NCBI GenBank assembly: GCA_015075175.1
Contig: JABTUV010000022.1
Span: 1-42,135, forward strand
Source of the DNA: a bacterium
Lineage (GTDB): Bacteria > Hinthialibacterota > Hinthialibacteria > H5-UNCL2
DNA: 42,135 nucleotides
Direction: 5' to 3'
Each line of letters opens with the position of its first letter. Position 1 is the stretch's first letter. Below are positions 1,893 to 40,033 of the stretch, piece after piece. The notes below the pieces were generated by a model. That model was given only the letters and a program-made list of their open reading frames with translations. It ran no database searches and had not been told where the DNA came from. Position numbers and translations under genes: made by a program.

Positions 1893-1899
1893 AGTTACC

Positions 1900-1926
1900 T
1901 TGCCAGGGGCGCGGTTTCATGATAAA
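1900..1926 (+). promoter_or_regulatory. Weak candidate promoter for yebC-ruv operon
   Basis: TTGCCA (1900-1905) and GATAAA (1921-1926) are separated by 15 bases, upstream of yebC and just after the preceding stop codon. The spacing is shorter than ideal, so this is only a suggestion. Confidence 0.25.
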
Positions 1927-1991
1927 GTCATGCCGGTCCGTAGGAGACGATAAACGGTGCGCGCGGCGCGCTTTGTGGGGGATTGTTCGCC

Positions 1992-2732
1992 ATGTCCGGC
2001 CATTCCAAGTGGAGTACCATCAAGCACAAGAAGGCGGCCCAGGATGCCAAGCGCGGCAAGGCCTTCGACCGGCTCAATAAGGAGATCATGGTGGCGGCGC
2101 GCGTGGGGGGGGCCGATCCCGACTCCAACCCGCGCCTGCGCACCGCCATCGCCAAGGCGCGCCAGCTCAACATGCCCTCCGACAACATCAAGCGCGCCAT
2201 CCAGAAGGGCCTGGGCGAACTACCCGGTCAGCAGATCGAGGAAGTCACCTACGAGGGTTACGGGCCCGCCGGCGTGGCCGTGTTCGTGGAGGCCATGACC
2301 GACAACAAAAACCGTACCGTGGGTGAAATCCGCCACGTGTTCTCCAAGCACGGCGGCAACCTGGCGGCCTCCGGCAGCGTCTCGTATCTCTTCCGCCGCC
2401 GCGGTATGTTCGTGATCGAGCAGGGCGACGAGGAGGCCATTTTGGCCGCGACGCTGGACGCGGGCGTTGAGGACGTGTACAGCGAGGACGGCAACGTGGT
2501 CGTGCTCTGCGACGTCTCCAGTTTCTCCGACGTCGAGGACGCCCTCGCCAAGGCCAATATCAAGACGACCGTGGCTGAACTTTCCATGATCCCCACCACC
2601 AAGGTGGAGCTGGAGGAAAGCGACGCGCGCAAGGTCCTGCGCCTGATCGAGGCCCTGGAGGAGAACGAGGACGTGCAGAACGTCTACGCCAACTTCGAGA
2701 TGTCGGACGCGGTGCTGGCGGCGGTGGGCTGA
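1992..2732 (+). CDS. yebC: YebC/PmpR family DUF28 protein (TACO1-like)
   Basis: A 246-residue protein starting MSGHSKWSTIKHKKAAQDAK, the family signature, and of normal family length. ATG 1992 is chosen because the family begins exactly at MSGHSKW and a GGGGGA ribosome site lies 9 bases upstream. An in-frame TTG nine bases earlier is rejected. Homologues act as cytoplasmic transcriptional regulators (PmpR) or, as shown more recently for the bacterial and mitochondrial members, help ribosomes through difficult proline-containing stretches. The second role fits a genome rich in Pro-Thr linkers, but that link is my inference. yebC upstream of ruvC-ruvA-ruvB is a widespread arrangement. No frameshift is seen. 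Confidence 0.96.
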   Translation: MSGHSKWSTIKHKKAAQDAKRGKAFDRLNKEIMVAARVGGADPDSNPRLRTAIAKARQLNMPSDNIKRAIQKGLGELPGQQIEEVTYEGYGPAGVAVFVEAMTDNKNRTVGEIRHVFSKHGGNLAASGSVSYLFRRRGMFVIEQGDEEAILAATLDAGVEDVYSEDGNVVVLCDVSSFSDVEDALAKANIKTTVAELSMIPTTKVELEESDARKVLRLIEALEENEDVQNVYANFEMSDAVLAAVG

Positions 2733-2752
2733 TGAGAACGCCAGCCGTAGGA

Positions 2753-2825
2753 CCTATGGACGCACTACACCGTAAATCTAAACCAAGCCGGGATTGTGTT
2801 TCGTTCGTCCCATGGGGTCCATAGG
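2753..2825. repeat. Short inverted repeat in the yebC-ruvC gap
   Basis: CCTATGGAC (2753-2761) pairs with GTCCATAGG (2817-2825) across a 55-base spacer in the 230-base gap between yebC and ruvC. It could be a transcript structure or a remnant of a dispersed repeat. There is no T-tract. Confidence 0.4.
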
Positions 2826-2893
2826 GTTCATTGTCCAAGCCGCCTGCTGCGCCCCCGGCACGCTGCGCCACTACGCCTTGCTGCATCTTCATT

Positions 2894-2920
2894 TTGGCCT
2901 CGGCCTGTGCTACACATAAT
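2894..2920 (+). promoter_or_regulatory. Candidate promoter upstream of ruvC
   Basis: TTGGCC (2894-2899) and CATAAT (2915-2920) lie 15 bases apart and end 42 bases before the ruvC ATG. The -10 is fair but the spacing is short. It may give ruvC-ruvA their own start. Confidence 0.25.
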
Positions 2921-2962
2921 CGGACGCACAGCCGCCCACCCGACCTTGCTGGGAGATCCCGC

Positions 2963-3472
2963 ATGACGCGCATTCTCGGCTTCGATCCCGGCTTGTCCGC
3001 CTGCGGACTGGGCGTGATCCAAGCTGAAAGTGGAGAGCTGCGGCTGCAGGAGTGCGCGGAACTCAAGACGCGAAGCGACGCCCGCCTGGAGGAGCGCCTG
3101 GCGATCATTTACGCGGCGGTAACCGACTGGATCGCCCGCTGGCGGCCGGACGCGGTCGCCGTCGAGCAGCAGATTCAGGTCAAGAACGTAGGAACCGCCA
3201 TAACGCTGGGCCAGGTGCAGGGCGTGGCCATGCTGGCGGCCGCGCACGCCGGCATTGCCGCTTACGCTTACACGCCGCGCGACGTCAAGAAGGCCGTGGC
3301 GGGAACCGGCAAAGCGGAAAAACAGCAGGTCGACCGGATGGTTGCCGTGCTCTTGGGTTGCGGCGAGAGAAAAATCCGCGAGCACGAGGGCGACGCCTTG
3401 GCCGTCGCCATCTGTCATCTTCACGCAGAAAAACTGCAGCGCCTCTTGAAGGAAGGATACCGTCAGGCATGA
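2963..3472 (+). CDS. ruvC: Holliday junction resolvase RuvC
   Basis: A 169-residue protein of normal length that cuts Holliday junctions as a dimer after RuvAB branch migration. The start at 2963 gives MTRILGFDPGLSACGLG, the canonical N-terminus; longer in-frame starts would add a non-family extension. Likely acidic and metal-site residues are Asp8 (GFDPG), Glu68 (AVEQQ) and, in REHEGDALAVAIC, His141 and Asp144. E. coli has Asp at the third position; His there matches the Thermus thermophilus enzyme, so it should be functional. The stop overlaps the ruvA start in ATGA (3469-3472), which indicates translational coupling. Confidence 0.96.
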   Translation: MTRILGFDPGLSACGLGVIQAESGELRLQECAELKTRSDARLEERLAIIYAAVTDWIARWRPDAVAVEQQIQVKNVGTAITLGQVQGVAMLAAAHAGIAAYAYTPRDVKKAVAGTGKAEKQQVDRMVAVLLGCGERKIREHEGDALAVAICHLHAEKLQRLLKEGYRQA

Positions 3473-4053
3473 TCGCGCAAATCCGGGGGACCGTGCTTGG
3501 CTTGGACTCCGACCATGCCGTGCTGGAGGCGGCGGGCGTCGGTTACGCCGTTTACGCGCCCCGGAGCGTCCTGGCGTCGTTGCGCGTGGGCCAGGAGGCC
3601 GTGCTTTACACCGTGTACCAGTTCCGCGAGGACGACGTGAAACTGTTCGGCTTTGCTTCGCGCGCGGAACGCAACCTGTTTCAGACGCTGCGGCTGGTAA
3701 AAGGCATCGGCGGCAAGACGGCGCTGGACCTCCTCTCCACGCTGCCCGCCGAGCGCATCTGCCACGCGGTCGCCACGGGCAACCTGGCGCTCCTGTGTAC
3801 GGCGCCGGGGGTGGGCAAGAAGACGGCGGAGCGGATCGTCTTCGAGTTGCGCGACAAGGTGAAAGGGGAAGCGGGAGTCGCCGCCCCCACCGCTGCCGGC
3901 GCGGGCGCCTTGGGCGATGACGCGGTAGCGGGAATGATGTATTTTGGTTATCCGCCTGCCGTCGCGGCGGCGGCCGTGGCCGCCGCGCGCCGCAGCCTGG
4001 GTCCTGCCGCCGATACGGAAAGTCTGATTCGGGAGGCTTTGAAACATGTGTAA
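3469..4053 (+). CDS. ruvA: Holliday junction branch migration protein RuvA
   Basis: A 194-residue protein that forms the tetrameric DNA-binding platform loading RuvB onto four-way junctions. Domain I (OB fold) spans about 1-62, beginning MIAQIRGTV. Two helix-hairpin-helix motifs follow, KGIGGKTAL (78-86) and APGVGKKTAERI (112-123). A flexible Ala/Gly linker (about 133-150) leads to the C-terminal RuvB-contacting domain III (to 194, ending LIREALKHV). The start overlaps the ruvC stop by four bases and the end overlaps the next gene by eight, so it lies within one operon. Confidence 0.96.
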   Translation: MIAQIRGTVLGLDSDHAVLEAAGVGYAVYAPRSVLASLRVGQEAVLYTVYQFREDDVKLFGFASRAERNLFQTLRLVKGIGGKTALDLLSTLPAERICHAVATGNLALLCTAPGVGKKTAERIVFELRDKVKGEAGVAAPTAAGAGALGDDAVAGMMYFGYPPAVAAAAVAAARRSLGPAADTESLIREALKHV

Positions 4054-4903
4054 TGTCCTGCGCCGGAGCGCATTGTTGATTCTCTTTTTCGTGCTCGTAC
4101 TGCCCGCCGGTTGGGGCCAACGCCGTCCCACGCCCACCCCCACGCCCATCCCGGAAGGAATCGTGCAGCAGGTGGAACGCGCCAATCAGATGTTCCGGCA
4201 AGGCCAGCGCGAGGAGGCCATCGCCCTCTATCGCGTGGCCCTTCAACAGGCGCCGACTTACGTGGAGGGCCATTACCGGCTGGGGGTGGCGCTGGCGGAG
4301 GCCGGCCGGTATCTGGAGGCCGAGCGCGCCTTCCAGGCGGTCCTCGAACTGGAGTCGGACCACACGCCGGCCAGGAACATGCTGGAGAAGTACGCGCAGG
4401 AGATCGCCGATGCCAAGCGACCGACACCTACGCCCACGCCCACGCCGACGGCCATGCCCCGAGCCGCGACCGGATTCGTCCCGCCCGCGACCGGTCAGCC
4501 CAAACTCACCGACAAGGAACAGGCATTGGTAGCCCAATTGCGGAACTTGCCGGACCCATCACGGCAAACCATGTTGTGGGTTCTGCGCGTCGGGTTCTGG
4601 ATCGGATGGGCCGTTGTATTGGCCGTGTCCTTGGCAATCGGCGCCGTATTGGGCCTGCTCTTCTGGCTGATCGGCAAGAACCGCGGGCACACCTACCCAT
4701 GGTGCTGGATGTACGGGACCTTCTGCGCCTGTTTCGGCATCGTGCTGGTATTCCTGCCAACCAAGGTCTCGCACATCATCGTGGGCATCATGGTGCTTTG
4801 CGCGTTGGCGTCGATGTTCTTCAGCTGGACGGAGTTCGCCGCCATCGACGTGGACCTGATCCAGCGGGCGCTGAATGACGCCGCCGCGGGGGCCGGCTCC
4901 TGA
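4046..4903 (+). CDS. TPR-containing membrane protein with Pro-Thr linkers
   Basis: A 285-residue protein with an N-terminal signal or anchor (about 5-24, ending AGWGQ) and a short PTPTPTP tract. A tetratricopeptide region follows at about 38-105, with the pattern [13 protein letters not shown] and [19 protein letters not shown] second [10 protein letters not shown] tract (127-135) leads to two or three hydrophobic segments (about 178-210, 222-238 and 243-262). TPRs mediate protein-protein contacts, probably outside the cytoplasmic membrane here. The gene overlaps the ruvA end by eight bases and stops three bases before ruvB, so it is co-transcribed with recombination genes although nothing in it suggests DNA repair. 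I do not recognise a specific function. Confidence 0.85.
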
Positions 4904-8590: not shown

Positions 8591-11293
8591 GTGCGCAATA
8601 TCGCTGTTGCCCTCGCTCTCTTGTCAGGATGGGTTTCCGCGGCAGGCCAGACCCAGCGCGTGATCGCTCCTGCTTCAACGCCCCAAGTGCTGCATGCCGC
8701 GGAGCTGCTCGCGGCGGCGACCGAGCTTGCCGGAGCAACTGTGACGCTTGCGGTCGCCGAGCCTCAGCGTTGGAGCATCAGCGGCGTTCCCTGTCCCGTT
8801 TCGCCAGAAAGCGTCGGGCTCCTGCAACGCGACGCGGCGCACATCGAGGTCTACGGCGCGGATGCCGCCGGAGTGCTGTACGGCGCGCTCGCGTTGCTTG
8901 AGAGGGCGCGGGAGCCTGCGCGCCGTCGAAGGTCCGGAACCGCGCCGGTGCTATTGCCCGAGCCGGTGCAAGAGACGCCGGCGTTTCGCCTGCGCGGGCA
9001 CGCCATGGCCGTCGTCTCGGCGACCAGCTACGATCAACCCATCACGCGCGCAACCGCTCCGTGGTTTTATGACATGAACTATTGGTTGAGAGAGCTGGAC
9101 CTCTGTCGCGACTGTCGTTTCAACGCGCTCTATATCTGGTCCAAGCACCCGTTCCCGTATTTTCTCCGGTTGCCCAGTTTTCCCGAGTCGCAGGACCTCT
9201 CCGATGCGCAACTGGACGAGAACATCGCCATGTTCAAGTGGATCACGACGGAAGCGGAAAAGCGCAACGTGACCATCATGTTCGTGATTTACAACATTTT
9301 CGTATCTCATAGTTTCGCAGAGGCCCATGAAATCCCCGTCGCCAACGCCTTCTGGTCGCCGCTGCTCGTCGATTACACGCAAGAGTGCGTGTCGCAGTTC
9401 GTCGCCCAGTATCCCAACGTGTCCCTAGTGATCTGCGCGGGGGAGGCGCTGGCGGAGCGCAAACCGCAGTGGGTGAGCGAGGTCATCCTGCCCGCCGTGA
9501 TGCGCACGGGGAAGCGGCCGCCCATCGTGGTGCGGGGATGGCAGATGTCGGCGCGCGACGTGGCCGAGGTCATTCTTCCGGTCTACGACAATCTTTACAC
9601 CGAGAGCAAGTACAACGGAGAACTCCTCACTTCGCCGCGCTACATGGAACCCGCCAACGAGGTTTACATCGCGCATTCGCCGCTGCACATTGTGAACATG
9701 CACCTCGTGTCCAACCTGAATCCGTTCCGGTGGTTTGATCCTTACTTTATCCGCGAGTGCATGAAGTTCTGCCATGACAAGGGCGCGCGCGGTTTGGAGG
9801 TTTTCCCCCTGGAGTTCTGGGCTTGGCCGCACACGATGGACCGGTGCGAACCGGGGCTCGTGAGCCTTGAGCGCGACCGTCTCTGGTACGAGGCGTGGGG
9901 ACGCTACAGTTGGAATCCCGACCGCGAGCTGAACGTGGAGGATGTGTACTGGTGGGAGCGGCTGGGCGGGGATTTCGGCCTGACGAGAGACGACGCCAGC
10001 AAGCTCCTCTCCGCGATGCGGCATTACAGCGCCGTGATGCCGGCCAACAATCGCTTCTTTTCGGCGCACGGCGGCAACGGCGCCGCGCACACGCTGGGGC
10101 AGACGCTGCCGCAGCTGATGCATCAGTCGGCGCGGCACTTCACGCCGGAGCGGGGCGAGACGGTGCGCAGCTTCGTCGCCAGAGTCGCCCACGGCACGCC
10201 TACCGTGGGAGAGGGTCCCAAGGAGGGCGCACGGTTCATGGCAGCCGAAAGCGCGGCGGCGGTGCGACTTTTTGACGAGATTATGCCGCGGGCGAGGGCG
10301 AATCGCGACGAGCTGGAACGCTGGCGCAATGACGCTCGGGCCATCCACGCCTTCGCCCTGCATACCTACGCCAAAGTGGAGGCGGCGATGGAGACGCTGA
10401 TGTATCGAGAGAGTGGGCGGCTGCTCCATCTGCGAGAGGCCGAAGCGGCGCTGACGCGCTCGGTCGAGGCGTACCGCGACCTTTGCCGCCTGACCGAACC
10501 GGCGTATCTGGCGGCAACGGGACTCCGCTGGTATCGGCATAAGCCCTACAGCACCGTGCTCTCGGTCGATCACTGGACGGACGTATTGCCGCGCTTCGAG
10601 CGGGAGCTGGCCGACTTTCGCGCCAACCTGGCCGTGCTTGAGAATGTGAATGCCGATCCATATGAGAGAAGTGTGATTGCTTGGCGTCCAGAGACGCCGT
10701 CACGGCTGCTTCTTTATGATAAAGATGCGCTGTTGCCTGACGGACTATTGGAGCATGGGCCGTGGCTCATGTTCGAGCTGGGTTTCGAGCAGGAGTCGCA
10801 GGGCTACTGGTGGGCGGACGGGATCAACCTGGCGGCGGAAGTGATCTGCGACGGCAGCCGCGAGCGGGCCTATCAAGAGTCGATCCAGACGATTGAGTGG
10901 ACGCCGCGGCTGGTGTCGCTTTCACGCTGGGCGGGCAGGCGGATTGCGCTTCGATTGATCGTTGAGCCGCGCGGAAGTCACGAGAGTGAGCACATCCTGT
11001 GGGGAAGCGCGCGAGTCCTGTCGGGGCAACTGCCGCGACGCCTGAGCATGGTTGCGCCCCCGCCGACGATGGAGGTCGTGGCAGACCTTGTGCGTTGCGT
11101 GGACCAAAGGCGCTACCGGCGGGGCCTCGTCTCTCCTAATGGACAGATGAAACCGTGGGGCGGCTGGGCGCGCGTGCACGCCGGCACGCAATGGGGCGGG
11201 AGCGACGCGCGGCCGGCCATATTCATGAGTACGCCCTACCAGCCGCAGGTGTTGGGTCACGCCGCCTTCCTGGAGTTTGATATCCAACTTTGA
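8591..11293 (+). CDS. Secreted glycoside hydrolase-like protein (GH67/GH20-type architecture)
   Basis: A 900-residue protein. GTG 8591 is chosen because GGAGGT lies four bases upstream and the start gives a clean signal peptide (VRNIAVALALLSGWVSAAGQ); an in-frame TTG at 8579 would put the ribosome site inside the gene. After the signal there is a small alpha/beta domain ending GVLYGALALLERARE, resembling the N-terminal domain of GH20/GH67 enzymes. A TIM-barrel-like region follows (RLRGHAMAV, CRDCRFNALYIWSKHPFPYF, NVTIMFVIYNIF, VSLVICAGEAL, PPIVVRGWQ, GARGLEVFPLEFWAWP). The C-terminal part includes a helical segment and a beta-rich end. This layout suggests a uronidase- or hexosaminidase-like exo-enzyme on a polysaccharide, but I cannot assign the family or substrate. 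It is intact, unlike the hydrolase just upstream. Confidence 0.85.
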   Translation: MRNIAVALALLSGWVSAAGQTQRVIAPASTPQVLHAAELLAAATELAGATVTLAVAEPQRWSISGVPCPVSPESVGLLQRDAAHIEVYGADAAGVLYGALALLERAREPARRRRSGTAPVLLPEPVQETPAFRLRGHAMAVVSATSYDQPITRATAPWFYDMNYWLRELDLCRDCRFNALYIWSKHPFPYFLRLPSFPESQDLSDAQLDENIAMFKWITTEAEKRNVTIMFVIYNIFVSHSFAEAHEIPVANAFWSPLLVDYTQECVSQFVAQYPNVSLVICAGEALAERKPQWVSEVILPAVMRTGKRPPIVVRGWQMSARDVAEVILPVYDNLYTESKYNGELLTSPRYMEPANEVYIAHSPLHIVNMHLVSNLNPFRWFDPYFIRECMKFCHDKGARGLEVFPLEFWAWPHTMDRCEPGLVSLERDRLWYEAWGRYSWNPDRELNVEDVYWWERLGGDFGLTRDDASKLLSAMRHYSAVMPANNRFFSAHGGNGAAHTLGQTLPQLMHQSARHFTPERGETVRSFVARVAHGTPTVGEGPKEGARFMAAESAAAVRLFDEIMPRARANRDELERWRNDARAIHAFALHTYAKVEAAMETLMYRESGRLLHLREAEAALTRSVEAYRDLCRLTEPAYLAATGLRWYRHKPYSTVLSVDHWTDVLPRFERELADFRANLAVLENVNADPYERSVIAWRPETPSRLLLYDKDALLPDGLLEHGPWLMFELGFEQESQGYWWADGINLAAEVICDGSRERAYQESIQTIEWTPRLVSLSRWAGRRIALRLIVEPRGSHESEHILWGSARVLSGQLPRRLSMVAPPPTMEVVADLVRCVDQRRYRRGLVSPNGQMKPWGGWARVHAGTQWGGSDARPAIFMSTPYQPQVLGHAAFLEFDIQL

Positions 11294-25540: not shown

Positions 25541-26961
25541 CTACCGGCGGGGGCGGGCCATGTGCACGGAGGCGCCGAAGAAGTTCTCCGCCGCTTCCAT
25601 CACCGTCTCCGAGAGCGTGGGATGGGGATGGATGGTCTCGCCCACGTCGCGGGCCAGGGCCGCCATTTCGACGGCCAGGGCGCCCTCGCTGATGAGGTCG
25701 CCCGCATTTACGCCTACGATCCCCACGCCCAAAAGCCGCTCCGTCGCGGGATCAAAGACCAGCTTGGTGAGGCCCTCGGTACGACCCAGGGTCATGGCGC
25801 GGCCCAAGGCCGTCCACGGGAAGCGCGCCGTCTTGTAGGCAACCCCCTTGGCCTTGGCCTCGGTTTCCGTCAACCCGCACCAGGCGATTTCGGGATCGGT
25901 GAAGACCACGGCGGGAATGGCCCGCACGTCCCAGGCCGCCTCCTCACCGGAGATCACCTCGACGGCGATCTTGGCTTCATGCGATGCCTTGTGGGCCAGC
26001 ATGGGCTCGCCGGCGATGTCGCCGATGGCGTAGATGTGCTCGTCGGCGGTGCGGCGGTGGTCGTCGACCTCGACGAAGCCGCGCTCGATCACCCGGACCC
26101 GGGTGTTCTCCCGCCCGATGTTTCCGCTGTTGGGGGTCCGGCCGACGGAGATCAGCACACGGTCGAAGCGGTGCTCGCCGGCAGCGTCCTTACCTTCGAA
26201 GGTCACCGCGACCGCGTCGCCGGTGTCCTCCATCTTCACGACCTTGGTGGACAGATAGATATTCTTGAAAGTGGTCTTGAGCCGGTTGTGCAGCACGCGG
26301 ACCAGGTCGCGGTCGGCCCCGGCCAGCAGCCCGTCGGTCATTTCGACCACGGTGACCTCGCTGCCCAGGGCGGCATAGACGGTGCCCATTTCCAGCCCGA
26401 TGTAGCCGCCGCCGACCACCAGCAGCGACTTGGGCACGTCGGGCAGCTCCAGCGCCGAGGTGGAGTCCATGACCCGATTGCTGCCGATCTGGCCAGGGAC
26501 GGGACCACGGGCCGGGAGCCGCTGGCCAGGATGCAGCGCTCGAACGACAGCGTGGCGGGCACGTCCCGGGCGCCGTCGGAAGGGGTAAGCGCCAGGGTAT
26601 GGCTGTCAGCAAAACGGGCGCGGGCCGAGAGCACGCGCACCTTGCGCGCCTTGGCCAATTGCGCGATGCCGTCGGTCAGGCGCGTGGTGATGCCCGTCTT
26701 CCAAGCGCGCAGCCTGTCGAGGTCGATCTTGGGTTCCTGGAAAGCAACTCCCCACTCGGCGCTCTCGCGGCTCTCGTGGATGAGGCGGGCGACGTGCAGG
26801 AGCGCCTTGCTGGGGATGCAGCCGCGCAGCAGGCAGACGCCGCCGAGCCGCGGTTCCTCGCTGATGAGCGTGACGGAGAGTCCCTCGTCGGCGGCGGCGA
26901 AGGCGGCGACGTAGCCGCCCGGACCCGCCCCGATCACGACCACTTGAGCCGGTTCAGTCAT
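25541..26961 (-). pseudogene. lpdA: Dihydrolipoamide dehydrogenase (E3), one-base frameshift near 26490
   Basis: E3 reoxidises the lipoyl groups of pyruvate dehydrogenase, passing electrons through FAD to NAD. The N-terminal half has the FAD motif VVVIGAGPGGYVAAFAAADE (8-27) and redox disulfide GVCLLRGCIPSK (Cys43, Cys48), and reaches [13 protein letters not shown]. The next part should read [18 protein letters not shown] but is in another frame. The total span is 1421 bases, two more than a multiple of three, consistent with one lost base. The second half has the NAD motif [23 protein letters not shown] and the catalytic [19 protein letters not shown]. Its start is 15 bases after the aceF stop. 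The rest of the operon is intact, so a sequencing indel is the likely cause. Confidence 0.94.
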
Positions 26962-31346: not shown

Positions 31347-32548
31347 ATGCGGCCGGGAAAGGCGGTCGCCGTGAGCGCGTGCGGCAGTGGTTCTCTTCCC
31401 AACCGGAGCGACGGTTGCCCGGCGCTGGCGCACTTCCAGCGCATGATCGGCGCCTGCCTGGCTTACGCGCGCGACAGGAAGGCCGAGGGCCGGCCCATCG
31501 TGGGCATCATGTGCGAGTTTACTCCCCGCGAGATCATCCTGGCCGCGGGCGGCGTGCCGGTCTGTCTTTGCGGCGGCTCCGCCTCCACCATCCCCGCCGC
31601 CGAGACCCAGCTGCCCGCCAATCTCTGCCCGCTCATCAAGTCCACCTTCGGCTATCACGTGGAGGGTTCCAACCCGCTTCTGGAGATGGCCGATCTGCTC
31701 GTCGCCGAAACGACCTGTGACGGCAAGAAGAAGATGTACGAGCTGCTGGCCGAGTCGCGGCCCATGTACGTGCTGGAGCTGCCGCAGAAGCAGAACGATC
31801 CCGACGGCCTCGCGGCCTGGACGCGGGAGTTGCGCAAGTTCAAGACCATGCTGGAGGAGCGTTTCAACGTCGTCATCAGCGATGACGATGTGCGCGCCGC
31901 CATCGGCGACATGAACCGCGAGCGTTCGCTGCGACGGCGGATCGCGGAGCTTATGGCCGCCGAGGCGCCTCCGCTGACCGGCCGGCAGGTCCTGCACTTC
32001 AAGAGCAGCATCTCGGCCATCCCGGAGGACCTGGCGCACTACGAAGCCGCGCTGGACTACTATCGGGCAGCCGCGCCGCTTGCGGACGCGCGGCAGCGCG
32101 TGCGCGTGCTTTTGACCGGCGTCCCCATGGTTCACGGCGCCGAGCGGGTGCTATCGATCATCGAGGAGCACGGCGGCCTCGTGGTCGCGCAGGAAAATTG
32201 CACCGGCCTCAAGCCAATCCTGGAGGACGTGGACGCGGAGGCCGACGATCCGCTCCGGGCGCTGGCGGAGAAGTACTATCATCTCCCCTGCTCGGTGATG
32301 ACGAAAAATGACGCGCGGCTGGAGCTTCTGGACGAGCTGGCGCGGCAGTATCGCGCGCAGTGCGTGATCGGCTGGTCTGGCGAGCATGCCTCACCTATGA
32401 CGTGGAGTCGTACCGCGTGCGGCGGCTGTGCGAGTCGGAGCTGGGCGCCTCTATCTGCGCATCGGACGGACTACTCGCCGGCGGACTCGACGCGCATCGC
32501 GGTGCGGTGGAGGCGCTGTTTGAGACGGTGCGAGCGGCGGGCGGGTAG
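31347..32548 (+). pseudogene. YjiM-like double-cubane / 2-hydroxyacyl-CoA dehydratase subunit, frameshifted near its 3' end
   Basis: Relatives include E. coli YjiM and the double-cubane cluster proteins, which hold iron-sulfur clusters and are energised by an ATP-dependent activator. Matching segments are GIMCEFTPREIILAAGGVPV (Cys56), CLCGG (73, 75), NLCPLIKSTFGYH (Cys94), ETTCDGKKKMYELL (Cys124), ENCTGLKPILEDVD (Cys285), PCSV (Cys315) and AQCVIG (Cys339). After about 32370 the frame shifts to WRACLTYDVESYRVRRLCES, then to HRTDYSPADSTRIAVR, then back to VEALFETVRAAGG at 32548; this is the family's normal C-terminus. Two or three indels are implied. ATG 31347 is preceded by a weak AGGAT. The gene leads a four-gene cluster ending in the activator at 35339. 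Substrate unknown. Confidence 0.85.
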
Positions 32549-32623
32549 CTCGCATCGGGCAGATTGCGCGTACAGCCGCCCTTCGACAGGCGGCCCGAGC
32601 GGGATGGTCCGCTTGGATGATAG

Positions 32624-33645
32624 AATGAGTCGGGCCGCTGCTCAGGGACTCGGGTTTCGCTTTCCGTGGGATTTCCTGACAACGTATGGAAGATTGAAAT
32701 GGAAGTAGTTCTTCACCTCTTCCTTCGTTCCCGGCAGTGGGTGGCGGCGCATGGACTTGTTCGAGGCGCGTCATTCCCACGCCGCAGGCCAGACGGCGAT
32801 GGGGCTGTGCCCGTTCGCAGCGGGCTTCATGCACACGGCGCTACGGTACGCCGCCGCCGGCATCATCGTGACCACGGAATGCGACCAGATGCGGCGCGTG
32901 CGAGCGGTTTCTGGAGCATCATCCCGTGCCGCACTTTCTCGGCACGTGCCCGCCACGTGGGAGACGCCCGCGTCCCATCGGCTCTATCGCGACGAACTGG
33001 CGCGGCTCAGTCGCTTTCTCGCCTCCATCGGCGGAACTGCTCCCTGCAAAACGACGTTGATCGAGATTATGAATGACTATGAGCAAAGGCGGAGGGCCTT
33101 TCATAGTATCGTTGCACTTCTTCCCGCACGGGATTACGTGCGGGCGCGTGTCGCCTTCACGAGGAGGGCGCAATTTGCCGCGACCGGCTACGCCTGTCCG
33201 ACCGACAGGCAAACCGCTGGCGCTGGTGGGCGGGCCGCTCCTGTTTGAGCATCTGGCGCTATTTGAGCAGATCGAAGCGGCGGGCGGCCGCGTCGTGCTG
33301 GAGGCGACGGCGGAGGGGGAGCGCGGGATGCCCGCGCCCTTCGACCGACGCAAACTGGCCGAGGACCCCCTGGGATGCCTGGCGGACGCCTACTTCGGCG
33401 CCATCCTCGACGCCTTCCGCCGGCCCAACGACGCGCTCTATTCATGGCTGGGGCGGCGCCTGCCGGAAAGCGGCGCGGCCGGTATCGCCTTCGTACATTA
33501 CGTCTGGTGCGACCTCTGGCACGCCGAGGCGGAGCGATTGCGCCAGTGGACCGCCCTGCCCGTGCTCGCGCTCGACCTGGCGGAGGACGGCCTTACGGGA
33601 CCTGTGCGCACGCGGCTGGAGGCGTTCGTGGAGATGCTGCCGTGA
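32624..33645 (+). pseudogene. Second 2-hydroxyacyl-CoA dehydratase-family subunit, frameshifted
   Basis: The start is uncertain; ATG 32624 gives MSRAAAQGLGFRFPWDFLTT. From 32751 a frame reads DLFEARHSHAAGQTAMGLCP, FAAGFMHTALRYAAAGIIVT and TECDQMRR, then HVPATWETPASHRLYRDELA and RLSRFLASIGG. A short out-of-frame patch near 32900-32945 encodes ERFLEHHPVPHFLG in another frame. From about 33210 a third frame carries GKPLALVGGPLLFEHLALFE, EQIEAAGGRVVLE, FVHYVWCDLWHAEAERLRQW and TRLEAFVEMLP to TGA 33643-33645. Cys in GLCPF, TECDQM and VWCDLW occupy the positions of cluster ligands in this family. Its stop overlaps the next start (GTGA). About 340 residues when joined. Indels or decay cannot be separated here. 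Confidence 0.7.
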
Positions 33646-35024
33646 GGCCGCCGCGCCGCCTCTCGCTGGCCGAGTGGGACGCGCGCCATGACGAGTTGCG
33701 GGACGCCGGACTGGTGGAACCCGCATACGGCGGACGGCTCTCGCGCCACCTGGCGGACGGCGACTTGCGCCTCCTGCGTCTCTCTTTCGATGGCTCGCCC
33801 GCCGCCCTGCGCCTGTGGAACTTCCTTCTGACCGAAGAAGATCGCCTGGCGGAGGCGCGCGGCCAAGGCAAGAAGCTCGTCGGCGCCATGAAGGACCTAG
33901 GGACCGTGCCCGTGCTGGCCTACAGCCTGCCCAACCTCGCCGCCTTCTATCCTGACGGCGCGTGGTGGATTCCATGCATGATGGAGATGAGCGCGGGCGT
34001 CCTGGAGATCGCCGACCGCCTGGGCGTGCCCGAATCCTTCTGTCCCGTGCGGGCCATGCTGGGCGCGTTCGTAACAAGGGCGCACTTCCCCATCCCGGAT
34101 CTGCTCGTGTGCAGCGTGGGCGCGGTATGCGACGACTTTTCGGCCATCGCGCAACGCCTCAGTAGCATGGGCCATCCCCTCCTGTGGTGGGAGATGCCGC
34201 ATCGGCGCGCGCCGGAGCCGGGAGAAGAAGGCGTCACGCTGCCGGGAGGTTTCACGGCGCCCCGGTCGCTCGTCGAGTTCGTCGCCGGCGAGCTGGCGCG
34301 CGTAAGAGCGGCCCTGGAGCAGCTGGCCGGCGCTCCGCTGACGGACGCCTTGCTCGGCGAAGGCATCCGCATGGCCAATCGCGTGCGCGCAACGTTGTCC
34401 AAGTTACGGCGATGGGCCTACACGGCCGACCCCTGCCCCATGCCGGCCCTGGAGATGCTCATCTGTGAGATGCTGGCCATCCACTACTGCTCGGATCGAG
34501 CCGAGGCGCTGACGGTCCTCTCCGAGATGCTCGGTGAAGTGGAGCGGCGCATGGCGGCGGGCGTGGGAGTCTCCCCGCGGGACGCCGCGCGCATTTACTG
34601 GGTCAATCCGGTCGCCGACCTGCGGGTGATGAACCTGCTGGAGGCCTGCGGCGCGCGGCTGGCGGGTACGGAGTACCTCTTCTCCCATGCGCTGGACGCA
34701 ATTCCGGAAGACCTTCCGCCGATGGAGGCGCTGGCGCGCGTGGCGCTCTCCGATCCCATGGTCGGACCGGCGCGCGACCGAGCGGAGCGCATCGCGCGTG
34801 AGATGGCGGCCTTCGGCGCGGAGGCGCTCCTCGTCTCGCGCATTCCGGGCGCCAGCCATTGCGCGCTGGAGGGAGAAGTCATCGCGGATTACGTGCGCGA
34901 ACGACTGGGCGTTCCCGTCCAGGAAATTGAAGTCCCTCCCGTCGCGGATGCGCTGGCGCCGGCGCTGCGAACGCGTTTCGAGGCGCTGATCGAGGCGATT
35001 GGCGAACGGCGGCGTTTGGGGTAG
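33642..35024 (+). CDS. Large, divergent 2-hydroxyacyl-CoA dehydratase-like subunit
   Basis: A 460-residue protein. GTG 33642 is chosen because it overlaps the preceding stop (GTGA). The fold appears to follow the dehydratase plan. There are a Rossmann-like part with AWWIPCMMEMSAGVLEIADR (Cys112), ESFCPVRAMLGAF (Cys134, resembling the CPLIK site) and DLLVCSVGAVCDDFSAIAQR (Cys157, Cys163). A helical middle with Cys265, Cys275 and Cys283 follows, then a second part with RIYWVNPVADLRVMNLLEAC (Cys336) and SRIPGASHCALEGEVIADYV (Cys407). It is 60-80 residues longer than usual subunits. Cys112, 134, 157 and 407 are the best cluster-ligand candidates. It is intact and in operon with two related subunits. 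I do not recognise a named member; function and substrate are unknown. Confidence 0.75.
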   Translation: MRPPRRLSLAEWDARHDELRDAGLVEPAYGGRLSRHLADGDLRLLRLSFDGSPAALRLWNFLLTEEDRLAEARGQGKKLVGAMKDLGTVPVLAYSLPNLAAFYPDGAWWIPCMMEMSAGVLEIADRLGVPESFCPVRAMLGAFVTRAHFPIPDLLVCSVGAVCDDFSAIAQRLSSMGHPLLWWEMPHRRAPEPGEEGVTLPGGFTAPRSLVEFVAGELARVRAALEQLAGAPLTDALLGEGIRMANRVRATLSKLRRWAYTADPCPMPALEMLICEMLAIHYCSDRAEALTVLSEMLGEVERRMAAGVGVSPRDAARIYWVNPVADLRVMNLLEACGARLAGTEYLFSHALDAIPEDLPPMEALARVALSDPMVGPARDRAERIAREMAAFGAEALLVSRIPGASHCALEGEVIADYVRERLGVPVQEIEVPPVADALAPALRTRFEALIEAIGERRRLG

Positions 35025-35039
35025 ACTTCGCTTGCCACC

Positions 35040-35338
35040 GGCCTGAGCCGCGGCAAGAACCGGAACCGACAGGGCTGAGCAGCGACATAAACCCACACCG
35101 AAAGCCCTGAGCGCAGGCCGAAGGCCGAAGTCGAAGGGCGGCTTGCCTGCTGAGGACTATCCTAATGCGGCCATCCGCTCCCCCCTTAATAAGGGGGGCT
35201 GGGGGGGATAAGGAGCAAGAGCAGCCATCCCGCGCTCAAGGCCGCCCTTCGACTTCGCGCTTCGCGCTTCACTCAGGGCTGTCGGGGAGGTAATCAGGCT
35301 TCGCTCAGGGTTGTCGGGGAAGTTATTGGGGATGAAGC
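35040..35338. repeat. Repeat-rich gap before the activator gene
   Basis: This 314-base gap (35025-35338) holds GTCGAAGGGCGGC (from about 35131) and its reverse complement GCCGCCCTTCGAC (about 35241-35253). TTCGACTTCGCGCTTCGCGC and CAGGGCTGTCGGGGA repeats follow. Between the arms is a hairpin CCCCCCTTAATAAGGGGGG (35180-35198, 8-base stem, loop AAT). The hairpin could pause or terminate transcription between the subunits and the activator. No gene is seen. Confidence 0.75.
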
Positions 35339-36109
35339 ATGATTTACGCGGGTATTGACGCGGGGTCGCGGGCCATCAAGGTCGCCGTTTACGACGCGCA
35401 GGATGGGCGCGTGCTGGCGACGGGCGTGGCCGACCAAGGGGTACGGCAGGCGGAACTGGCGCGCGAACTATACCGCGAGACGCTGGCGCGCGCCAACGGG
35501 CGCGCCGCCGAGGTCCGCCGCAGCGTGGCCACGGGCTACGGCCGCAACTTGGTCGATTTCGCCGATACCACCATCACCGAGATCACCTGCCACGCGGCGG
35601 GCGTGCGTTTCTGGCAACCGGAGGCGCGGACCGTCATCGAGATCGGCGGCCAGGACAGCAAGCTGATCCGGCTCAACGCGCGCGGGGGGGTGCAGGATTT
35701 CGCCATGAACGACCGCTGCGCGGCGGGGACGGGCCGGTTCCTGGAAGTGATCGCCGCGCGGTTGGCTTTGCCGCTCTCCGCCGTCGGCGAGATGTGCGCC
35801 AGAAGCAAGCAACCGGCGACTATCTCCAGCATGTGCGTGGTGTTCGCGGAGACGGAGATCATCGGCCTCTTGGCGACGGGCGCGCCGCCCGAGGACATCC
35901 TGGCGGGGGTGTGCAGGTCGCTGGCGACGCGCATGGCGGCGATGGCGGGACGCAGGCTGGACGCGCCCATCTTTTTCACCGGCGGCGTGGCCATGATTCC
36001 CGGCATGGCGGAAGCGATGGCGTCCGCGCTCGGCCATCCGGTCGAGGTCTGCCCCCAGCCGCAGATGACGGGCGCGGTCGGCGCCGCCCTCCTGGCCGCG
36101 CAGTCCTGA
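35339..36109 (+). CDS. HgdC/YjiL-type 2-hydroxyacyl-CoA dehydratase activator (ASKHA ATPase)
   Basis: A 256-residue ATP-dependent archerase: a homodimer with one shared [4Fe-4S] cluster that hydrolyses ATP while passing one low-potential electron to its partner. ASKHA motifs are IDAGSRAIKVAVYD (6-19), VIEIGGQDSKLIRL (99-112) and FFTGGVAMIPGMAEAM. Cluster ligands are Cys127 in NDRCAAGTGRFLE and Cys166 in SMCVVFAETEI, the same positions as in Acidaminococcus fermentans HgdC. The gene is intact and of family length. ATG 35339 follows GGGGA. It lies 314 bases after the third subunit, on the same strand, and ends three bases before a hairpin repeat. No CoA transferase or hydroxyacid dehydrogenase lies nearby, so the substrate cannot be inferred. 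Confidence 0.95.
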   Translation: MIYAGIDAGSRAIKVAVYDAQDGRVLATGVADQGVRQAELARELYRETLARANGRAAEVRRSVATGYGRNLVDFADTTITEITCHAAGVRFWQPEARTVIEIGGQDSKLIRLNARGGVQDFAMNDRCAAGTGRFLEVIAARLALPLSAVGEMCARSKQPATISSMCVVFAETEIIGLLATGAPPEDILAGVCRSLATRMAAMAGRRLDAPIFFTGGVAMIPGMAEAMASALGHPVEVCPQPQMTGAVGAALLAAQS

Positions 36110-36228: not shown

Positions 36229-39200
36229 TTACTCGAAGTAAACGCGGACGGTTCCCGGGCGCAATCGCAGCATGGCGCCGCGCGCGGCCATTTTCTGCCG
36301 GTCGGTCGCGGTCGCGCGGAACTCCTCCCACGGAATCAGTTCCCCGCCCTCGACCTTGACGATTTTCATCCCGCTGGTGTGAATCTGAGCCGTGTAGGCC
36401 ATGTCGCCCGGCAGCGGCCCCTCCCACCAGTGCGGCGCGCGGCCCACAAGTTGCAGTACTTTCTCCGCTTCATCCCACGTGGCGGATGCAAGGTCCAGAA
36501 ACGTGCGCGCCAGGCTGGGCGCAGGCTGGCCGGTCTTTTCCACTTCCACCACGTAGTGGCCGGGACGATTGGGCAGGAACACCAGCGAGCCGTCGAAATA
36601 CCGCCACGGCCGCCCATTGACGCGCACGCGGTCGAAAGGCTCCTTCCACTCGAGGCGCGGCGCAAACACGAACGGACCGGTCTTGACCACGTCCACCTCG
36701 CAGCGGCCGGGCCGGACGCCGTCGCGGATGGCCAACATGTACTGGCAGCCGTAACCCGGCTTGACCACGCCCTCGATGAAGCCGTAGGGCGCCAGGCGGG
36801 CGTTGCCGCCAGCCTGCAAGTAGACGCGCACGAGGTCGCGCCGGCCATTGTCCTGCGCGCCCCGCACCAGCCACGACGCGCGGCCGTCGGCGCCCGTCTC
36901 CAGCACGTGATAGGGGCCCTTGCCCGCAGGCTCGACGCCCAGCACTTCCACGCGCGGGATGGAGAGCTCGTTCTTGACCGTCGCGGGCCGACTGCCCGGC
37001 CTGACTGTGCGCAGGGGCGCCAACAACGCCTGCCGCACGGCCGGCAGTTCGGACTCGGCATACAGTCCGTCATCCACCAGGATTCCCAGCGTGAACGCCG
37101 ACTGCTCGCGCGTGGGCGACACAATCACGACGTCGTCGCCGCGCCGTTCCAGTCTTTCCGCGCCGTCGCCGGCAAGCGCGATCACCAGCGCGGGCCGGTC
37201 CGCGATAAGACTGGGCAGCCGCCACGTGCGTTCCGCGCCCGGCACGGGCGCGAGGCCGCCGTAGCGCGCAAGCGACAGCCGCGTCTCCCATGCGCACGCC
37301 TGCGGCGCCCGGTTTTCGATCTCGACCGTGAACATGGGCGAGTCCGCTGTCACGCGATAACGCCGCGTCTGACAGTACTCTCCCGCCGCATCCGCGAGGA
37401 GCCGCTCCTCCAGCACCGCCAGGTGTCCCACTTTGACCGGGATGTCGTGCACCACGCACTGCGCTGCGGTCCGTCGAACGACCAGCGCATCGAAGGCGTG
37501 GGCGAAGCCGGGGCGGCCGTCGCGGCGCCGCTCGCCTACCTCCGCCTTCTGCACGCGCAAGAGCAGTTCATGCCGTCCCGACGAACCCAGGCTGAACGGC
37601 AGCCGGTGCACCGTACCACCTGCCGGCGCGGGGAAATAGACGCCGATATGGCGGCCGTCCACGTCCACTTCCATGGTACAGGGATACTCGACGGGCAGGG
37701 TATGCACTTCCAGTTCGCAGCGGCCCGCCCCGGCCTCGAACTGCACGACGATCTCCTGCGGGCGATCCGGCCAGGACTCGTAGCAGATTTCCGCTGGAAA
37801 CTGCGATGCATCCGCGCTGCACATATAACGTTTGTCATAGCCTCCGGCGGCCTTGAATTCGTCGCTCCCGCCGTCTACGCGCCCGATGGAAAAAATGGGG
37901 TCAGCGCCCAATTTTCCTGAGGAGCTTCCAAACTCCGCGGAACGTGCTGGAAAATCAGGCGCTGACCCCAATTTTTCCGCAGAGAGAAAGTGGTCCGACA
38001 GCTCCAGCGCCGGCTGCGGGCGGTCGGTTTCGTGATAGTACGCCAGCCGCAACGGATCATACTGCAGAATCCCGCGATCCTCGCCCGCCAGGCGCAGGAG
38101 GCGGAAATAGTTGTTCTGTACGAACGCCGTGTCCTGCGGATAAGGCTCGTCGCAGACGTAGTTCTCGGGCACGCCGGGGACGGTCTCGCGCGCCTTCTTG
38201 CGATAGCCGTCGGAGCCGACCGCGCGCAGCGTAGCGGCGACCGCGCAGCGCATGGGATCCATCGAGATGCCGTACACGTAGACGCGGTCCTCTTCCCGCA
38301 GGGTTGACGAAGGTTCTCCCAACCACCAGATGGAGCTGTCCAGATAGAGACGGTCGCGGCAGAAGTCGTTGACCTGGCGCAAGAGCCAGTCGGGAGTCGA
38401 GCCGCCGCCGTAGTTGGCCCAGCCGCCCCACTCGCGCGAACTCGGCTTCATGCTGCGGCAGTCGGCCTGGTAGGAGAGATAGAGCGGCGGATGATATACG
38501 TACCGCCACAGGTCGCCGTAGCCGCAGGCGTTGATGCCGCCGGTGCGGCCGAAGGCGCACATCCACGTGCCCGCGAAGTACGGACCCGTCTTGTCCAGAA
38601 TCGCCGTACTGTAGCGATAGCTGCCGGGATGGTACATCCAGATCTTGCGCATGTAGCGGCCCGAAGCGTCCGCCGGCCACCACTCGGAGCCGACCCCGTC
38701 GTGGGACGAACGCCAGCCGAAGAGGAGACCGTTCTGCATCTCGCGCGCCTGCAGTTCAGCGAAGTCCTCGTAGGCGGCGGCCAGGGCGGCGGAGTCGGGA
38801 CTGCCGCCGCGCTCCGCAGTGATGGGATTGGGATGATAGAAGAGTTGCACCAGCATGTCGCGCTCGTGGGCCAGCTGGTAGAGTCTGCGCGCGTTCTCCC
38901 AGCTCCAGAGCGGATCCCAGGAGCTGCCCCAGTAGCGCAGGGGCGAGCGGGGCGGGGCGATGGGGTCGTCGCTCTTCCAGTCGAAGGGATAGCCGCGGCC
39001 CTCGTGCGTGCCGGGAGTATAGAACTCCAGCAGGTGGGCGCCCCAGCGATGCGGCTCGTCGATCATGCGCGTCCTGTAGTACTCAAGGCCCACCGACTCC
39101 TTCGCCGCGCGCTGATAGGTGATCTGGCCGTGCCAGCCCCAGTGCGCGATGAAGGGCAGGCCGGGATGCCGGCGCAGGAAACTATGAGGCTGCGGTTGGG

Positions 39201-40033
39201 CGAATGCAGGCGGAGACATATACTCGTCATACTCGAGCCGAGTGGGAGTCTCCGGCAGGGCGGCGATGCGCGGATTGGCCTTGCCGGTGAGGACCTGCGC
39301 CACGTTGCGTAGAAATCGGTGAAAATTGCCCTCCGCCTGATTGAACCAGAACTGCTCCAGGAAAAGGTTGTGGCCGTAGCCGAGCACGCGACCCCGGCCG
39401 AGCGTCCATTCCACGAGCATCACGTCGCGCGGGGCGATGAAGTCGCCGTCATAGTTGCGGCGGATGTAATGCGCGAGGGGCCGGCCCGCGCGCGGCTGGC
39501 TCCACGCCAATGGCAGATTTCCAGATTCATGCTGTGATTGGAGGAAGAAAGCGTCGGGATGTTCGGAATCAGGAAAGTCCGATAAAGAGGGGGCTCGTTT
39601 CCAGGGGTCGCAGCCCGACCTGGAAGGCTCCCTTCACGGGCGTCTGGTCGCCGTAGCCGACGCGAAAATGCTCCATGCGTCCGGGGCGCTCCTGCTCCAG
39701 GCCCAGTTCCACCGTCCAGGCGGGGGCAAAGCCGACCAGGAAGAGCGCACCACCGTTCGACAGGAAACGCCGCACGTTGGCGACGACCGCCGGATCACTC
39801 GCCTCCCGGGGCAGGGACCGGCTGTGGCACGCCCATACGATGAGATCGACGCGGGCGGGTACGCGAGCCGCCAGGTTGTCGAACGTGATGGGCCGGGCGA
39901 AGTAGAAGCCCGCCAGGCTCTCGCGTGTGGGATAGCTATCGGCCATGCTGGGCGTCACGGCGTCCTCCTGGGCGTGAATTGAGATTACGAGAGCACACAG
40001 CAGGGCGGGGAGCAAGCTGGGACGGGCGGACAT
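36229..40033 (-). pseudogene. Very large secreted protein of unknown function, one frameshift near 39580
   Basis: The start at 40033 has GGAGGT 8 bases upstream and a signal peptide (SARPSLLPALLCALVISIHA). An N-terminal alpha/beta domain (VDLIVWACHSRSLPRE, NVRRFLSNGGALFLVGFAPA) resembles the glutamine-amidotransferase-like domains fused to carbohydrate enzymes. At about 39580 the frame ends at PLFIGLS and continues in another frame with DFPDSEHPDAFFLQSQHESG, then runs intact for over 1090 codons to 36229. That part includes FIAHWGWHGQITYQRA, YWGSSWDPLWSWENARRLYQ and LAHERDMLVQLFYHPN (barrel-like), a beta-sandwich carbohydrate-binding-like region (VQFEAGAGRCELEVHTLPVE) and a beta-rich C-terminus. 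About 1267 residues in total. I do not recognise the family; a glycoside-hydrolase-like secreted enzyme is the best guess. It contains an inserted palindrome at 37889-37979. Confidence 0.8.
37889..37979. repeat. Imperfect 30-bp inverted repeat inside a coding region
   Basis: Arms 37889-37918 and 37950-37979 pair at 27 of 30 positions with a 31-base loop, sharing GGGGTCAGCGCC and AATTTTCC. The insertion reads in frame and adds about 30 residues (EKLGSAPDFPARSAEFGSSS then GKLGADPIF) whose two ends resemble each other. It looks like a mobile palindromic repeat that landed in the gene. Confidence 0.85.

Follow-up and report, generated by a model that had tools for sequence, protein, structure and literature searches.

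A conserved gene module pairing a double-cubane protein and an ATPase activator with two diverged dehydratase-family subunits and a methyltransferase is linked to selenocysteine genes

Three dehydratase-family genes and a gene for an ATP-driven activator lie on the forward strand at positions 31347-36109 of the stretch of bacterial DNA analysed here (the window; 42,135 nucleotides, contig JABTUV010000022.1 of assembly GCA_015075175.1). These genes belong to a conserved five-gene module, composed of a methyltransferase that depends on S-adenosylmethionine (SAM) (mt), a double-cubane-cluster protein (DCCP; g1), two further dehydratase-family subunits (g2 and g3) and one activator (act). We consider it probable that the module is an ATP-driven reductase with mt as its fixed partner and with a tie to selenium genes; that it serves selenium metabolism in selenocysteine (Sec)-decoding bacteria of the Planctomycetota-Verrucomicrobiota group, acting there as an ATP-driven reductase at low potential, is a reading to which we give an even chance. 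Gene content, conservation, cysteine patterns, predicted folds, and the physical and phyletic linkage to sel genes are established here directly.

An earlier note, made from the letters of the window, had described three dehydratase-family genes and one activator on the same strand. This was confirmed by matches of all three genes to Pfam PF06050 (HGD-D; 270.5 bits for g1, 34.3 and 50.5 bits for the two pieces of g2, 124.2 bits for g3) and of the activator to TIGR00241 (250.1 bits, twice the cut-off of 125.4). No PF06050 genes beyond these three were found in the window assembly of 4.98 Mb, which is ~84% complete. The four genes are the following:

31347..32548, forward strand: gene 1 (g1), double-cubane-cluster protein, YjiM-like (PF06050, NF040772, frameshift-aware alignment); start ATG at 31347 (N-terminus uncertain), stop TAG at 32546-32548
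32699..33645, forward strand: gene 2 (g2), short dehydratase-family subunit (PF06050 on both pieces, frameshift alignment)
33642..35024, forward strand: gene 3 (g3), larger dehydratase-family subunit of ~460 amino acids (aa) (PF06050, relatives, structure model)
35339..36109, forward strand: activator, ASKHA-type ATPase, HgdC/DCCP-R-like (TIGR00241, Cys127 and Cys166)

Searching with g3 retrieved 13 loci, at 52-68% identity, in metagenome-assembled genomes of Planctomycetota, Verrucomicrobiota and Lentisphaerae, and one genome of the window's own class. The same-strand order g1-g2-g3-activator recurs in other genomes, and is therefore not a product of chance; the earlier note had proposed to look for such recurrence, and the alternative that the genes never co-occur elsewhere did not hold. 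A constant fifth member and a tie to selenocysteine genes, both beyond what that note had described, emerged from these loci. The fifth member, mt, encodes a cysteine-rich SAM-dependent methyltransferase of ~267 aa, which is found in 24 of the 28 loci first examined, in most cases immediately before g1 or else between it and g2. Among 288 Verrucomicrobiota genomes g3 and mt occur in the identical 8, so that mt behaves as an obligate partner of the module; in the window genome it resides on another contig (C12:204326-205094). No named NCBIfam family accommodates it (its best score, 50 bits, lies well under the cut-off of 155), and its further weak, below-cut-off matches include arsenite-methyltransferase-type selenoprotein families. 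The SAM site carries a CCC or similar motif, whose first cysteine is invariant in 12 aligned sequences. A divergent subfamily (loci L097-L103) has equivalent components, for the most part arranged as mt-g2-g3-g1-activator.

In four loci mt is adjoined by a gene for an outer-membrane-type DUF3034 protein (L036:4785-5783, L030:1233-2243, L048:8076-8903 and L099:10780-11784), which in L036 and L030 is rich in Cys and His past its signal peptide. Two members of the divergent subfamily, L100 and L101, contain MtaA/CmuA-like URO-D methyltransferase genes within the module locus (L101:3575-5185 and about 9280-10197), a feature reminiscent of type 1 mlp clusters, for which a role in methyl-selenide metabolism has been proposed. 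We considered, and rejected, the idea that the module always includes a corrinoid (URO-D) step, such genes being present in these two loci only.

The physical link to selenium genes is most evident in loci where the module and the sel genes form a single run: act-g1-g3-g2-mt-selD-selA-selB-fd in L102 (fd denoting a NapH-like ferredoxin gene), act-g1-g3-g2-mt-selD-selA in L103, selD-act-g3-g2-g1-mt-selA-selB in L094, and g1-mt-g2-g3-act-selA-selB-selD-fd in L040. Within about 10 kb of the module, selA or selB was also found in L036, L042 and L031/L107, and selD in L032, L041 and L090. A manual count gave at least 13 carrier genomes out of 36 with selA, selB or selD within about 10 kb, which by chance would be expected with a probability of about 1e-13 or less, given an assumed 1-2% per genome. 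In two genomes (G570 and G582) g1 lies away from g2 and g3, and yet adjoins selA and tRNA-Sec. On contig C1 the window genome itself carries tRNA-Sec, fd, selA, selD and selB together in a single region, and the NapH-like polyferredoxin gene adjoins sel genes in several genomes.

Co-occurrence follows the same direction. We detected selA in 14 of the 15 carriers first examined; across Verrucomicrobiota, where selA is rare (17/288), it is present in all 8 carriers versus 9 of 280 non-carriers (Fisher p = 2.3e-11), and DCCP genes (NF040772) occur in 10 of 17 selA-positive versus none of 17 selA-negative genomes tested (p = 3e-4). By its co-occurrence in Verrucomicrobiota and its linkage with selA, selB, selD and tRNA-Sec, the module behaves as one of selenium/Sec utilisation.

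The SelD encoded next to the module has an added AhpD/CMD domain. In module genomes this variant combines a Cys-rich N-terminal extension (CIC...CPCD...CPCAGE) with the C-terminal CMD/AhpD domain (L040:13965-15551), and the same form is seen in L032, L041, L090, L094, L102 and L108. Two module carriers, G249 and G393, additionally possess a separate, more distant DCCP-activator pair beside selB or selD, so the linkage between DCCPs and selenium may be broader than the module. These minimal pairs, directly before selD in L090 (G393:C32:5000-15984, at 874-4433) and after selB in L117 (G249:C493), have DCCPs ~35% identical to the g1 of the module and are independent of g2/g3 and mt.

Judged by its sequence, g1 is a DCCP of the YjiM type, as the earlier note had recognised. 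The intact relative in L036 scores 407.9 bits against NF040772 (cut-off 350), the frameshift-cut window copy 342.2, and the cut-off was exceeded in 13 of 38 genomes searched; the window g1 is 64% identical to that of L031 in a frameshift-aware alignment. A profile built from ten g1 sequences matches the DCCP of Carboxydothermus hydrogenoformans (7yyl/6eno) with E = 2e-78, and cysteine partners to 6eno/7yyl are found at C51, C70, C89, C119, C280, C310 and C343 (L036 numbering). Six of these are invariant in the ten sequences, and C343 is absent only from the frame-cut window copy. The activator (Pfam BcrAD_BadFG, 187.5 bits) is 58-63% identical to nine relatives, and the two cysteines that the note had given for its complete HgdC activator, Cys127 and Cys166, are invariant in ten aligned sequences.

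The other two subunits appear, from structure models, to be diverged relatives with the fold of DCCP, HadBC and BzdNO. In relatives g2 is ~319 aa long, and the intact L036 copy scores 128.8 bits with PF06050. Its model (pLDDT 88.8) has DCCP as top match (Z 32.9 over 313 residues, the whole length), and it also matches BzdN (Z 31.9) and HadC (3o3n_B, Z 30.3). The family has three invariant cysteines only, C40, C64 and C274 (L036 numbering), which profile alignments place opposite the DCCP cysteines in NLC, TTCD and QFC, and g2 would therefore hold one [4Fe-4S] cluster at most. For g3, which is 53-69% identical to 13 relatives, the model (pLDDT 86.0) matches BzdN (Z 36.8), HadC (3o3n_B, Z 35.9) and DCCP (Z 35.8), and six cysteines are invariant (C106, C128, C151, C157, C277 and C401). 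We infer that g2 partners with g3.

In the window genome some of these genes are broken, as became apparent when selected stretches were aligned to intact relatives in a frameshift-aware manner. Single-base shifts were located in g1 near 32371, 32451, 32465 and 32509 (with a doubtful fifth near 31412) and in g2 near 32734, 32786 and 33171, while the frames of g3 and the activator are intact, with zero shifts. The open reading frames (ORFs) at 32751-33248 and 33073-33645 are accordingly two halves of a single gene, g2. Of the overlap between genes that the earlier note had described, the large version (33375 versus 33645, between the g2 and g3 ORFs) is an artefact of choosing the start of the longest ORF; a small one probably exists, of 4 bases (GTGA, 33642-33645), where the GTG start of g3 lies over the TGA of g2, and a 4-base overlap is likewise present in relatives such as L036 and L040.

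With no fewer than four single-base shifts in g1 and a further three in g2, these genes could be taken to have decayed and the locus to be a non-functional remnant in the window genome. We regard this as very improbable: g3 and the activator are intact, and the translated sequence is well conserved on either side of each shift. Assembly error is the likelier cause, since genes elsewhere in the window genome are broken too, on other contigs mt (4 shifts), selA (1) and selB (1), and within the window lpd (dihydrolipoamide dehydrogenase; 25541-26961, reverse strand), whose sequence is divided between two ORFs that overlap, again suggestive of indel errors in the assembly. We also rejected in-frame TGA (selenocysteine) codons as the cause of the breaks; the in-frame stop near 32706 is TAG and the shifts alter the frame. 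The selenocysteine reading is further contradicted by the module genes being open in nearly all relatives, where stop flags were raised only for the activators of L042 and L101 and for g1 of L106.

ATP-driven low-potential electron transfer is established for the activator and dehydratase families. Because these families imply an ATP-driven electron injector together with low-potential iron-sulfur acceptors, the module is suggested to be a reductase, and because its gene neighbourhood implies selenium, a role in selenium metabolism is suggested as well. The earlier note had proposed an ATP-driven reductase for an unknown difficult substrate; its observation of the genes is confirmed and this overall interpretation is partly supported, the general idea being upheld by the families, with the activity and the substrate interpretative and the latter now narrowed towards selenium. 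Specifically, we infer a selenium compound as the substrate, its acquisition rather than its use or detoxification, and a role for mt in the reaction.

In the mechanism that we propose, the activator would receive an electron from a ferredoxin-type donor, for which the NapH-like polyferredoxin encoded beside the sel genes in several genomes is a candidate, and would hydrolyse ATP and drive the electron onward at very low potential. The acceptor would be the double-cubane cluster of g1, the [4Fe-4S] clusters of the g2/g3 pair, or both. An inert selenium compound, for instance a methylated or other organic form, would be cleaved reductively, with mt putting on or removing a methyl group of the substrate or product, and the freed selenide would be passed to SelD in its local form with the extra AhpD/CMD redox domain. 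That the module supplies selenide from an inert selenium compound seems possible, with chances that come close to an even balance at best. More tentative is the proposal that DCCPs serve selenium metabolism, with the DCCP, the derived dehydratase pair and mt freeing selenide for SelD from an inert selenium compound in an ATP-driven manner and so providing the missing in-vivo selenium donor for selenophosphate synthesis.

Several observations weigh against an involvement in selenium metabolism. In Planctomycetota selA is common (192/294 genomes), and its enrichment in module carriers (15/17 versus 177/277) is weak, with p = 0.06; we therefore rejected a link to selA in this phylum from co-occurrence alone as not significant. 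Two planctomycetal carriers, G160 and G399, have no detected selA, perhaps due to incomplete genomes, all co-occurrence p-values ignore shared ancestry, and the window assembly has the module, mt and the sel genes on three different contigs. The linkage could also reflect a selenoprotein partner instead of a selenium substrate. The weak planctomycetal co-occurrence would suit an anaerobic low-potential reductase with a non-selenium substrate, which keeps company with Sec genes through strict anaerobes or through a selenoprotein electron donor. We find this distinctly unlikely, as shared ecology leaves unexplained why, in 13 or more of the 36 carriers, module genes lie gene by gene next to selA, selB, selD or tRNA-Sec. 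Somewhat less doubtful is that the module deals with selenium in the reverse direction, making or detoxifying a selenium compound (for example by methylation and volatilisation of selenide, or by synthesis of a Se-metabolite) or reactivating a selenoprotein. Proximity to the sel genes is equally compatible with this reading, and the arsenite-methyltransferase-type selenoprotein families among the nearest below-cut-off matches of mt, as well as the invariant first cysteine of its SAM motif, are in its favour. Detoxification, however, should on general chemical grounds not require ATP-driven low-potential electrons, and direct contiguity with selD, selA and tRNA-Sec favours supply.

That g2 and g3 form an ordinary 2-hydroxyacyl-CoA dehydratase or a class I benzoyl-CoA reductase, serving the breakdown of amino acids or aromatics and accompanied by an extra DCCP, we judge to be hardly credible. 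Superfamily and fold are indeed common to both (see the BzdN and HadC matches above), but the NCBIfam equivalog models speak otherwise: BzdN, BzdQ, BcrA, BcrC and BcrD were all far below cut-off, placing the genes outside the benzoyl-CoA reductases, and the HadC model (NF052456, cut-off 700) gave 54-61 bits for g1 and listed neither g2 nor g3 among its matches, placing them outside the dehydratases. There is a single activator, and genes for a CoA-transferase or CoA ligase, for an acyl-CoA dehydrogenase or for aromatic pathways neither accompany the window cluster nor recur in relatives; in particular, CoA-transferase and acyl-CoA pathway genes did not recur in the 28 module loci. A Pfam check of the neighbours in the window likewise revealed no CoA-transferase or acyl-CoA dehydrogenase, the flanks being pyruvate dehydrogenase (PDH) genes and an ORF without Pfam match. 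This agrees with the earlier note, as does its view that the cluster need not belong to a fermentation, no fermentation pathway being present around it.

Comparison with characterised systems shows which parts of the module are shared and which are its own. The DCCP/DCCP-R system of C. hydrogenoformans (6eno, 7yyl, 7yzm; NF040772; YjiM/YjiL) resembles g1 with its one-gene ASKHA activator; known DCCP systems consist of one DCCP and one activator, whereas the module adds two diverged subunits, mt and sel neighbours. Class I benzoyl-CoA reductases such as BzdNO(PQ) and MbdON(PQ) are heteromeric and have a fold in common with g2/g3, and the BzdNO type unites one double-cubane subunit and one [4Fe-4S] active-site subunit within this fold (PMC11971306). 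They differ in having two activator subunits to the module's one, and the module is without aromatic pathway genes. HadBC-HadI and HgdAB-HgdC pair two HGD-D subunits of the same fold with one homodimer-type activator, as the module does, but lack its third, double-cubane subunit, and the module in turn lacks a CoA-transferase. Type 1 mlp clusters, which are concerned with corrinoid methyl-Se/methyl-S transfer and are marked by several Mlp (URO-D) proteins, a corrinoid protein and a RACE-type activase, share with the module the association with selenium genes and the presence of DCCP members (PMC10418091); Mlp genes were found in no module locus other than the divergent relatives L100 and L101, the only ones hit when the URO-D protein of L101 served as query, which sets the module apart from the mlp clusters.

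Prior work has touched on this connection. The preprint on mlp clusters provisionally linked DCCP genes to selenium metabolism and noted sel genes in these clusters (PMC10418091), and subunits of 2-hydroxyglutaryl-CoA dehydratase and its activase belong to the highest-ranking partners of Slackia selenium genes (Lin et al. 2015, PMC5322559 Table 1), although that study did not pick them as candidates (PMC5322559). These two were the only relevant reports on dehydratases with selenocysteine or selenium in the limited open-access literature, in which we found neither a description of the five-gene module nor a paper that treats a dehydratase together with selA and Verrucomicrobia. A recent structural paper has called the function of DCCPs in biology unknown (PMC11971306), and the selenium form used by SelD in vivo, together with its donor system, is considered incompletely understood (2026 review, PMC13188914). 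The module joins these two questions and makes both testable, naming five constantly associated genes and the organisms that carry them in one run with selA-selB-selD. Our results point to a hitherto unrecognised, energy-expensive step in bacterial selenium metabolism; if true, largely uncultured bacteria would be credited with a nitrogenase-like, ATP-costly reaction in their selenium metabolism.

Around the cluster in the window, the divergent upstream neighbours form a pyruvate dehydrogenase operon (genes for PDH E1, E2 and E3), and the activator is followed directly by the Pfam-less ORF mentioned above (1092 aa; 36229-39510), which runs on the reverse strand. Scanning the window and the mt-bearing locus with Rfam produced no match at gathering thresholds. 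In one genome, the region downstream of the module (L030:7223-11767) encodes a TAT-exported ferredoxin, NrfD and a molybdopterin oxidoreductase of the polysulfide/DMSO-reductase superfamily.

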